A DNA stretch of 64,000 bases from Spirosoma sordidisoli (lineage in GTDB: Bacteria; Bacteroidota; Bacteroidia; Cytophagales; Spirosomataceae). The stretch covers positions 62,001-126,000 of the forward strand of contig NZ_SBLB01000008.1 in assembly GCF_004138325.1 (NCBI RefSeq). The letters are read 5' to 3'. Position 1 is the first letter of the stretch; each line of letters begins with the position of its first letter. The notes under the pieces were generated by a model, which saw nothing but the letters and a program-made list of their open reading frames with translations, was not told the origin of the DNA and did no database searches. This document shows positions 60,656 to 63,850 of the stretch, one piece after another. The position numbers and the translations under genes were made by a program.

Positions 60656-61771
60656 TTAGTAAAGCACTTCCATTTCGACGAGTTCGCCGAATACTTCCTG
60701 TCCAACTACTTCTTCTACTGACTCAACGCTATTCAGGTTGAGCAGCAGATCGCGCAGATCTTCCGTAATCTCATACGTCTGATACAGACGCCGGTCGAAC
60801 AGGATGGGGGCCTGTTCCAGATCGCAAAGCGTATAGCGATCCGCATTGAAGGCCGGTTTTAACATCCGTCTCCGCATCAAATGAGGACGAAATTTCTCTG
60901 GCTCGAGGAAAGAGTGAACAAAATTCCACCCTTCCCATTGTTCCGGATATCGGTTCAGATACGGCCAGAAAGCGTCGTAAAGCTGTTGCATAGCCTCCCG
61001 ACAGTACATTTCCCGGTCACTCTGCCGAATGGGGCGTATTGCACCCAGAAACTGCAACACGTTAGTCAAGTCATCCTGCCGGTAACTCACGACCGGTACG
61101 ATTGGCACGCCAGCAGCATGCGATAGATACCCTACCCCTTTGCGGGTCAATAACCGTCGCTTGCCAAACCTGACTGACAGAAATTGATCTTCCTGGCCCG
61201 GCTCGGGAGCCGTCTCAGGACTTCCATCTACATAAACGATCAGTGATCGCCCGGCTTTCAACTCTCGCAGTACCGTTAAGCCGGCGGTCGGACTCCCCGC
61301 TTCGACTATCCGGAATGAATTGGTCAGTCCATGTTTCTGGCGCAGACCCTCAATGTGTTCAACCATACCATCGCCCTGGCTACGATTCATGTTGTTCCCC
61401 ACCAGCAGCACACAGTCAACTCCTTGTCTGAACAGTACGCTGGTCAACAGCCTGTACGAGCCGAGGTGATAGGTGCAATAAATAGCTGGGGAACTGGCCG
61501 CAAACGACGCCGTACGCGTTCCGTTCAGTTTCACCAGGTCGCCAGCCGTCAGACACTGCTGATCGAAGGTGGCGAAGATCTGCTGCAACAGAAGCTGCCT
61601 GAAAAGGCTTTCGTGTTCGGTTCGGGGGATATGGGGCAGTACGTTCTCTACGTTCGCCGAAAAGGTCGTGAACCTCATCAGATAGCCCCTCTCCCGCTGC
61701 AAGTCGACCCGCTCAAAATGTTCACGACAGCGGGCCAACTCCTGCCTATATAATGTCCGTGGGGTTGGCAT
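60656..61771 (-). CDS. LpxL-like acyltransferase with PqqD/RRE-like C-terminus
   Basis: 371 residues. The central part is like lysophospholipid/LpxL acyltransferases: His 102 in IYCTYHLGSYRLL, SLIVYVDGSPET, and FGKRRLLTRKGVGYLSHAAG followed by VPIVPVVSY. The usual HX4D/E acid is Arg 107 here. The last about 65 residues (RYTLCDLEQAPILFDRRLYQ, TYEITEDLRDLLLNLNSVES, FGELVEMEVLY) have the strand-strand-helix order and ILFDR...YEIT pattern of PqqD-type peptide-recognition domains. It lies 12 nt downstream of a 54-residue peptide gene and may acylate that peptide; this is an inference. Confidence 0.75.
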   Translation of the reverse strand: MPTPRTLYRQELARCREHFERVDLQRERGYLMRFTTFSANVENVLPHIPRTEHESLFRQLLLQQIFATFDQQCLTAGDLVKLNGTRTASFAASSPAIYCTYHLGSYRLLTSVLFRQGVDCVLLVGNNMNRSQGDGMVEHIEGLRQKHGLTNSFRIVEAGSPTAGLTVLRELKAGRSLIVYVDGSPETAPEPGQEDQFLSVRFGKRRLLTRKGVGYLSHAAGVPIVPVVSYRQDDLTNVLQFLGAIRPIRQSDREMYCREAMQQLYDAFWPYLNRYPEQWEGWNFVHSFLEPEKFRPHLMRRRMLKPAFNADRYTLCDLEQAPILFDRRLYQTYEITEDLRDLLLNLNSVESVEEVVGQEVFGELVEMEVLY

Positions 61772-61783
61772 GGTTTGTGCGGC

Positions 61784-61948
61784 TTACAGCGAGAAAACTG
61801 GCTTGTTCTGTCCGTTCATCAGCATGACAGAATCACAGCAGATTGGGCTCTTTACGAATTTGAATACGTTGGCTGATTCGGACTTGGCAACTGATTTCGA
61901 CAAAGATTTCAGAACACTGGCTGGTTTGATGGCAAATTGCTTTTTCAT
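61784..61948 (-). CDS. 54-residue candidate modified-peptide precursor
   Basis: Starts at ATG 61946-61948, inside a longer frame whose upstream part is not conserved-looking. The peptide begins MKKQFAIKPASVLKSLSKSV and has a Cys pair in KSPICCDSV and the end NGQNKPVFSL. Lys and Ser are abundant in the first half, like a RiPP leader. No signal peptide. A strong promoter (62017-62047) drives it and the acyltransferase gene follows after 12 nt, so the two are one transcript. Function unknown. Confidence 0.6.
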   Translation of the reverse strand: MKKQFAIKPASVLKSLSKSVAKSESANVFKFVKSPICCDSVMLMNGQNKPVFSL

Positions 61949-62016: not shown

Positions 62017-62047
62017 CAAAGCTACCAGGTGGCCCAGGGGCTGACAA
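62017..62047 (-). promoter_or_regulatory. Promoter of the peptide-acyltransferase pair
   Basis: On the minus strand, TTG (62047-62045) and TAGCTTTG (62024-62017) are separated by 20 nt, the same layout as the blaI promoter. The leader before the peptide ATG would be about 60 nt. Confidence 0.75.
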
Positions 62048-62128
62048 TCACGAAAAAGTCACAAAAGCATGTTGGAATTAGTTAATTATTACCAGTATCT
62101 TAGTCGAGATTTTGAATAAGGGGACAGC

Positions 62129-63154: not shown

Positions 63155-63850
63155 TTACAAGTAGCTCTTGACAGCAATACCATAGCGCGGTAACTGCCTG
63201 CAGCTGCTCAACTCCAGTTTTTTGGCGATATGAGCCTTGTGGTTAATAGCTGTTCTGTAGCTTATGCCCAGTTGCTCGGCTATTTCGGTAGCCGTATGCC
63301 CGTTGGCAACCATCTTTAGTACCTCTCGCTCCCGATCGGTGAGCCGCTTGAGTTCATTGCGTGTACTGTCGGCCAGAATTTCAACCCCGAAATTCTTGAG
63401 CAACGCCATAAATCCCGTACTGTAATAACACCCTCCGCTACTTACCGTCTGGAAACAGCGGTGCAGTTCTTCGAGACCGTCACTGGCGTACAGAAACCCG
63501 AAAAAACCCAATTGCATCGCATTGGCAATCATCCGTAAATCCGGTTTACTGGCGTACAGTATGAACTTGGTTTGCTGGTTCGATTGCCGCATCTGATGAA
63601 CAATATCGAAACTCTGCCGGCCTGATATCTCTGACTCCAGAATAACACACTGCGGACGCTTGACCCGAATCTGCTGTAGTGTATCTTCAACCTCTACCGC
63701 ACGACCTACTACATTATATCCCTGCTCTTTGAGGAGCTGGCTTAATACCTCGCACGTGAACACTTCTGACTGAGCTACGAGTATTGAAAAATCCCGGCGT
63801 CGAATCGCAAAACTTTTGGCGGCTTCCTGGCCGTCGGTTGAGTAGTTCAT
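63155..63850 (-). CDS. LuxR/NarL-type regulator with degenerate receiver
   Basis: 231 residues. C-terminal GerE HTH is canonical (LTDREREVLKMVANGHTATE, IAEQLGISYRTAINHKAHIA). The N-terminal receiver keeps the fold (FSILVAQSEVFTCEVLSQLL, RPQCVILESEISGRQSFD) but the acid pair is Gln 27-Ser 28, the phospho-Asp position is Glu 72 and the conserved Lys (YLLK) reads FLYA. It therefore cannot be phosphorylated in the normal way and may be constitutively active or controlled by a ligand or partner. Its upstream region carries the 21-nt-period repeats. Confidence 0.9.
   Translation of the reverse strand: MNYSTDGQEAAKSFAIRRRDFSILVAQSEVFTCEVLSQLLKEQGYNVVGRAVEVEDTLQQIRVKRPQCVILESEISGRQSFDIVHQMRQSNQQTKFILYASKPDLRMIANAMQLGFFGFLYASDGLEELHRCFQTVSSGGCYYSTGFMALLKNFGVEILADSTRNELKRLTDREREVLKMVANGHTATEIAEQLGISYRTAINHKAHIAKKLELSSCRQLPRYGIAVKSYL

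Follow-up and report, generated by a model that had tools for sequence, protein, structure and literature searches.

A four-gene unit in Spirosoma pairing a RiPP-like precursor with an RRE-tailed acyltransferase-like enzyme: a candidate lipopeptide cassette with its own regulators

Among the closest described counterparts of the locus studied here are the GNAT-lipidated RiPPs (selidamides, nostolysamides, lipolanthines, goadvionins and lipoavitides), in which, according to passages of one account (PMC13060382), a dedicated acyltransferase lipidates a ribosomal precursor. The same transfer of a fatty acyl chain to a ribosomal precursor by a dedicated acyltransferase is what we propose for an enzyme encoded in a 64,000-nucleotide stretch of Spirosoma sordidisoli DNA, hereafter the window. 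The described enzymes are GNATs that act on lanthipeptides, whereas the window enzyme is not a GNAT but joins a PatA/LpxM fold to an RRE, and no lanthipeptide synthetase was recognised at its locus. The DAG-RiPPs, as presented in excerpts of PMC12636315, are lipidated Cys-containing ribosomal peptides of Bacteroidota, with a cluster named in Spirosoma endophyticum. They carry the signal peptide of lipoproteins and are processed by the general lipoprotein pathway, whereas the window peptide has an acyltransferase-like partner, lacks a strongly hydrophobic stretch (best 15-residue mean 1.0) and belongs to a set in which the sequence before the CC pair varies.

Individual parts of the locus also have described relatives. 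PatA and LpxM share the fold of residues 31-290 of the enzyme, which differs from them in the absent HX4D/E acid, the added RRE and the partnership with a peptide gene. The RREs (PqqD, lasso-peptide B1, McbB, TruD) share the predicted fold of residues 304-371, fused in the window to an acyltransferase-like domain. Fusions of an RRE with a glycosyltransferase and with a glutathione transferase are named in the main text of the RRE-Finder paper, where the word "acyltransferase" is absent (PMC7470986). Like agr and ComDE, the locus joins a peptide, a processing-type enzyme and a LytTR regulator in one unit, and some distant loci contain a kinase together with a LytTR response regulator. Unlike agr and ComDE, the window locus has its LytTR domain joined to membrane helices and a putatively lipidated peptide, and kinase and response-regulator queries matched nothing in up to 6 kb on each side of 38 closely related loci. 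With respect to daptides and epipeptides, the daptide_HExxH model matches, at scores under its curated cut-off, the M50-type proteases encoded near distant homologues, whereas no M50-type protease was found in the 38 close loci and the homologous clusters add an acyltransferase and, in eight of 39, an arginase-family gene. Searches of the open-licence literature, with subscription papers outside their scope, found no LPLAT-fold or lipid A-type acyltransferase for RiPPs, no RRE-tailed peptide acyltransferase of LPLAT fold and no Spirosoma peptide signal.

Organization, conservation and regulation of the locus

The window lies entirely within one contig of a 7.37 Mb genome. Its locus is a four-gene unit of a peptide gene, an enzyme gene, a membrane LytTR gene and a LuxR-type gene (Table 1). 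The original prediction had described a two-gene pathway, in which a strong promoter precedes a 54-codon peptide with a CC motif, followed 12 nt later by an LpxL-like acyltransferase. The pair is well supported, both genes lying on the reverse strand with the enzyme gene downstream across a gap of 12 nt (61772-61783), and the CC motif is present. As a description of the locus the two-gene pathway proved incomplete, having missed both regulator genes and the operator, and this regulatory half is the part that bears most on function. No exporter, leader peptidase, histidine kinase or immunity gene was recognised among the adjacent genes when these were read by eye.

Table 1. Features of the unit, in positions of the window
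Feature	Position	Strand	Description and basis
Precursor peptide gene	61784..61948	-	ATG, 54 codons plus stop; F-x-I-K box in leader, AK-x-E motif, CC within a variable core, KPVFSL at the C-terminus
RRE-tailed acyltransferase-like enzyme	60656..61771	-	371 aa
Catalytic-type domain, residues 31-290	60902..61681	-	PatA/LpxM fold; AF2 model and structure comparison
C-terminal RRE/PqqD-like domain, residues 304-371	60659..60862	-	AF2 of the domain alone; best structural matches are RREs
TAGCTTTG promoter box of TAnnTTTG type, serving the peptide and enzyme genes	62017..62024	-	Sequence and recurrence in relatives
TTG, 20 nt upstream of the TAGCTTTG box	62045-62047	-	Sequence
Operator, imperfect palindrome (core 62079-62092)	62079..62104	-	Conserved; 54 nt upstream of promoter box
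Membrane LytTR-type DNA-binding protein, 340 aa	62129..63151	+	About four hydrophobic stretches, then LytTR (PF04397); divergent from peptide
LuxR-type (GerE) regulator, 231 aa, degenerate receiver domain	63155..63850	-	Domain matches and alignment

Conservation was assessed in two overlapping samples, the counts from which are not independent: the genomes of the family, and 77 named loci from the enzyme alignment, gathered through two short peptide patterns and not exhaustive. The named loci comprise 39 distant and 38 close ones (L052-L089), the latter from Spirosoma, Fibrisoma, Larkinella, Runella, Rhabdobacter, Arundinibacter and Persicitalea, with one (L065) labelled Spirosomataceae only. 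The nearest enzyme among the named records, 96% identical, is that of Spirosoma lacussanchae.

In all 38 close loci, and thus across seven genera, the peptide gene has the divergent LytTR gene on one side and the enzyme gene on the other, which bears out the expectation that its frame be conserved beside homologous acyltransferases and rules out a chance open reading frame as its source. Shifted frames of the gene contain stops in 17/17 and 16/17 Spirosoma sequences, and at four loci (L064 and L065, of the Spirosoma oryzae type, and L066 and L067, from Fibrisoma) it is present in two to three copies. After removal of three out-of-frame ORFs, the alignment of 39 distinct rows showed F5 and E27 in every row and I7 in 38, with L in the remaining one. 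The second Cys of the CC/SC pair is likewise present in all 39, the first position being C in 31 and S in eight. Around the Cys the core varies in length and sequence and the leader is conserved; pN/pS across 17 Spirosoma sequences points the same way (0.47 in the leader versus 0.59 in the core), a modest contrast of uncorrected values near saturation, less clear than the alignment itself. A strict peptide pattern matched 28 of 30 loci in the genus genomes, missing L004 and L006; L004 is apparently the same locus as the named record L053, whose peptide has L for I. None of the NCBIfam precursor families matched any of the ten precursors tested. Judged by its sequence, the peptide is a RiPP-like precursor, a small gene conserved in relatives beside a modifying-type enzyme and encoding a conserved leader followed by a more variable core.

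The unit is inherited as a whole. The enzyme search matched 66 of 222 family genomes, closely in 62 of them (E <= 1e-65), and every one of these 62 carries both a LytTR and a LuxR-type match; within the genus the whole unit is present in 35 of 36 genomes. The other four enzyme matches (G039, G046, G110 and G153; best 1e-29 to 5e-60) belong mostly to other locus types and were set apart. LytTR matches (E <= 1e-25) were found in 68 genomes and LuxR-type matches (E <= 1e-40) in 63. Of the six additional LytTR genomes, G170 has a truncated locus, with a LuxR-type gene and a contig that stops within the LytTR match or shortly after it; the matches in the others are weak (E 6e-34 to 2e-39). In the enzyme tree, the LytTR-linked enzymes (27 of 69 rows) form one group with support of 99/97, in a bootstrap that is not fully settled.

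The intergenic region between the LytTR and peptide genes contains a palindromic operator with TAGT-like to ACTA-like ends, perfect in Persicitalea. The TAnnTTTG box is a Bacteroidota promoter element, and the promoter predicted ahead of the peptide is corroborated by the TAGCTTTG box with its TTG and by the fixed distance at which such a box follows the operator. In 37 of 39 intergenic regions (the window and the 38 close loci), the operator ends 54-55 nt before the box (52 as matched in Rhabdobacter); the two that do not fit are from Fibrisoma, where the box differs by one letter. Letter-shuffled regions fitted the pattern at a mean of 0.04 and a maximum of 1 over 50 rounds, a generous control given that the pattern was written after the alignment had been inspected. 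In a whole-genome test, the Spirosoma form of operator, spacing and box occurred exactly once in 31 of 36 genus genomes, in all 31 adjoining the LytTR gene, and the reversed control gave no matches in the same genomes. The five genomes with no match include one (G209) that lacks the locus in a 71% complete assembly. A 26-base form of the operator likewise occurs once in the window's genome at up to three mismatches. In the forms searched, the operator has no second copy in the genome, which gives no sign of a wider regulon under control of a signal. Regulation of the unit looks dedicated and local.

Both regulators accompany the peptide in nearly all close loci, the LytTR gene standing beside it in 38/38 close named loci and the LuxR-type gene being present in 37/38, with a short contig (L086) as the exception. 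In the receiver domain of the LuxR-type protein, Glu occupies the position expected for the phospho-acceptor Asp across 38 compared sequences, the column having been assigned by reading the alignment, so that this regulator is probably not controlled by phosphorylation. Variants of the regulatory genes were also observed. Seven family loci (L160-L166), away from the peptide locus, encode stand-alone proteins of 176-187 aa whose similarity to the LytTR protein is confined to its membrane half, possible receptors or inhibitors devoid of a DNA-binding domain to judge from their sequences. In three genus genomes (L168, L169 and L170) a second LytTR copy, shortened in two of them, lies between the usual LytTR and LuxR-type genes, and L168 and L169 additionally have a small LuxR-like gene and the gene of a large protein in that interval.

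The acyltransferase-like domain and the C-terminal tail

The enzyme was modelled with AF2 from an alignment of 69 sequences, namely the window protein and 68 of the 81 enzyme frames of the named loci, 13 near-duplicate or incomplete rows being excluded (pLDDT 89.7, pTM 0.88). Structure comparison placed residues 31-290 in an LPLAT-type fold, with VIA Z scores of 21.9 against mycobacterial PatA and 21.1 against Acinetobacter LpxM, and the best Foldseek E-value for the enzyme model was 2.5e-11. The LpxL-like character originally proposed is thus supported by the PatA/LpxM fold, together with faint profile matches: NCBIfam returned a weak LpxL-like hit (E 0.014), and Pfam Lip_A_acyltrans (PF03279) matched 43 of the 69 sequences at E <= 0.1 (best 1.2e-8) and gave no match to the window enzyme itself.

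The replacement of the HX4D/E acid by Arg, also predicted, was confirmed and found to be general. H102 is followed by R107 in the window enzyme, and across the 69 aligned sequences position 107 is R in 56, K in five, Q in four, W in two, F in one and P in one, and never D or E. H102, D182, Q278 and W282 are invariant in all 69. Because the acid is missing throughout, ordinary catalysis of the PatA/LpxM type is doubtful, and for the same reason the enzyme is here considered a homologue, not a member, of the LpxL/LpxM/PatA acyltransferases. The absence might be explained by a Cys thiol as acceptor, since a thiol would depend less than a hydroxyl on a catalytic acid.

The C-terminal tail appeared only once (5v1v) in the list of structural matches of the whole protein, and residues 304-371 were for that reason also predicted separately. 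The resulting AF2 model (pLDDT 91.6), from an alignment of the window tail and 51 of 59 eligible tails, has three strands forming a sheet followed by three helices, as in the RRE fold. Its top VIA matches are leader-bound lasso-peptide RREs (6jx3, Z 6.6 with 67 aligned residues and an rmsd of 2.6 A; 5v1v, Z 6.2; 5v1u, Z 6.2), with PqqD 5sxy at Z 5.3, and the tail within the full-length model matches 5v1v at Z 5.8, although Z scores of this magnitude can be reached by chance. Below the RREs and PqqD, the list contains mostly other peptide-binding domains from RiPP or thiazole-forming enzymes. Foldseek E-values for the tail were weak (best 0.11), a profile search of solved chains gave chance-level matches only, and no RRE or PqqD sequence profile of Pfam or NCBIfam matched it. 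The assignment is nevertheless persuasive because a single functional family tops the match list, both for the isolated tail and, through 5v1v, for the whole protein. The PqqD-type tail of the original prediction was accordingly borne out by fold comparison, not by sequence profiles, and in the predicted structure residues 304-371 are an RRE/PqqD-like domain. As stated in parts of the RRE-Finder paper, PF05402 retrieves RREs incompletely and leaders add a strand beside beta3 of the RRE (PMC7470986). We infer that the F-x-I/L box of the leader is the natural ligand of the enzyme's RRE.

Distant homologues and their genomic neighbourhoods

The enzymes of the 39 distant loci, found in Bacteroidota and in some proteobacterial assemblies, are distant homologues at about 17-35% identity. 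Their neighbours, up to 6 kb on each side, were labelled by phmmer searches with example proteins whose domains were checked; the matches to the M50/daptide_HExxH, GRASP_w_spasm and SPASM_w_grasp profiles lie below their curated cut-offs. By these labels, M50-type metalloproteases occur in 15 loci, beta-ketoacyl synthases in 13, FabZ-like proteins in nine, arginase-family proteins in eight, ATP-grasp and SPASM-type proteins in six each (the latter with a TIGR04193 match in four of the six, below its cut-off), AMP-binding proteins in five, and LanB and radical SAM proteins in two each. A histidine-kinase-like protein with a LytTR response regulator is found in nine, adjoining the enzyme in five and 2-5 kb away in four; for L124, where no Pfam or NCBIfam model matches, the kinase label comes from a match to L093's PF06580 kinase at E 2.3e-19. 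Seven loci (L103, L104, L106, L115, L118, L121 and L126), some on short contigs, have no labelled RiPP, fatty-acid or signalling gene, and one of them adjoins a GMC oxidoreductase gene.

Short ORFs in which an ELEERLE-type motif precedes a tail containing Cys occur in 13 of the 39 distant loci and in none of the 38 close ones. The motif was initially matched by 34 peptides in 14 loci, of which four, devoid of Cys and resembling internal pieces of LytTR proteins, were set aside; a few of the remaining 30 overlap or hold masked letters (L101). One precursor, from Arcicella, starts MEKQFEI, similar to the MKKQFAI of the window peptide.

Several of these neighbourhoods are noteworthy as observations in their own right. 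A second homologue in the window's own genome, on another contig (L002, 109-3507), is flanked by a daptide-like M50 metalloprotease on one side and a GRASP_w_spasm-like ATP-grasp enzyme on the other. The operons of L045, L105 and L119 combine two beta-ketoacyl synthases, a reductase-like gene (by eye), the enzyme homologue and a LanB-type dehydratase, accompanied, at least at L045 and L119, by a FabZ-like gene, and are candidate fatty-acid/lanthipeptide hybrid clusters. At L090, L101, L112, L114, L116 and L117 the homologues lie near M50 proteases and arginase-family proteins, accompanied at all of these except L114 by at least two short ELEERLE-type Cys precursors. The beta-ketoacyl synthases had also raised the possibility of an acyltransferase of flexirubin or aryl polyene synthesis, which was set aside on neighbourhood evidence, given the recurrence of LanB, ATP-grasp, SPASM, arginase-family and M50 proteins.

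Proposed mechanism and alternative explanations

The explanation that we favour, with somewhat better than even confidence, is that the locus forms a small, self-regulated cassette for a lipopeptide, in which acylation of the peptide would be guided by the RRE, regulation would be local and the product would most plausibly signal through the membrane LytTR protein. The F-x-I/L box of the leader would dock on the C-terminal RRE, adding a strand to its sheet, and the PatA/LpxM-like domain would transfer an acyl chain to the core, with acyl-ACP or acyl-CoA as donor. The acceptor would most likely be the second Cys of the CC/SC pair, the never-varying residue of the core, while the first Cys or the Lys or Ser residues of the peptide may serve instead. 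Genes elsewhere in the genome would have to provide for export and for removal of the leader. Transcription of both genes would be driven by one promoter through the palindromic operator, bound by the membrane LytTR protein, the LuxR-type protein or both. Acylation by the enzyme, which the original prediction had also put forward, gains indirect support because the distant homologues often have lanthipeptide dehydratases, graspetide-type ATP-grasp/SPASM pairs, daptide-type metalloproteases or fatty-acid-building enzymes in their vicinity, and 13 of the 39 have Cys precursors. The resulting lipopeptide would then plausibly act back on the membrane LytTR protein as a signal, a role favoured because LytTR regulators recur near the enzyme in two different forms.

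A bolder form of this explanation, which we advance tentatively and would not expect to hold in full, is that the locus represents a new mode of peptide signalling in Gram-negative Bacteroidota, with RRE-guided lipidation by an HX4R enzyme of LPLAT fold and kinase-free sensing by a one-component transmembrane LytTR protein, and that the enzyme family constitutes a new class of RiPP lipidation.

An acylated peptide might alternatively act as an antimicrobial or surface lipopeptide, with the LytTR and LuxR-type proteins merely serving as local regulators in the manner of self-inducing bacteriocin loci. The confinement of the operator to the unit's own promoter is compatible with this possibility, variable cores and tandem precursor copies would suit a diversifying product, and 30 of the 39 distant loci, many of them near RiPP genes, are without a kinase/LytTR pair. 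We nonetheless regard it as rather unlikely, as neither immunity nor export genes were recognised beside the unit and its presence in 62/222 family and 35/36 genus genomes resembles a core circuit more than a sporadic bacteriocin.

It seems improbable that the enzyme is a lipid acyltransferase regulated by the peptide as a partner protein, the peptide being no substrate at all. PatA and LpxM, its structural relatives, do act on lipids, as their entry titles also indicate, and the absent HX4 acid suggests an altered activity; but it is hard to see what an RRE tail would contribute to acylating lipids, the leader/core contrast, invariant Cys and tandem precursors are typical of substrates, and several homologues lie near LanB, ATP-grasp, SPASM and arginase-family genes. 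Finally, we give little credence to a different modification of the peptide at the HX4-Arg site (unusual acyl or aminoacyl transfer, or thioester or ring formation at Cys), which would fit a site that is changed yet conserved, the acid missing in 69/69 while H102, D182, Q278 and W282 persist, whereas the beta-ketoacyl synthase, FabZ-like and AMP-binding genes of 13, nine and five distant loci point to acyl chains.

Returning to the RRE-guided acylation that we favour, the dedicated enzymes so far described as fatty-acylating ribosomal peptides are, in the passages of PMC13060382 concerned, GNATs, and genetically encoded lipopeptides would become accessible by a new route if an unrelated fold carrying its own leader-binding domain did the same. 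This proposed route would span Bacteroidota and some proteobacterial assemblies and, being two genes long, would be easy to test and to engineer. If the product is a signal, the unit would constitute a peptide communication system of Bacteroidota with a one-protein membrane receptor-regulator.
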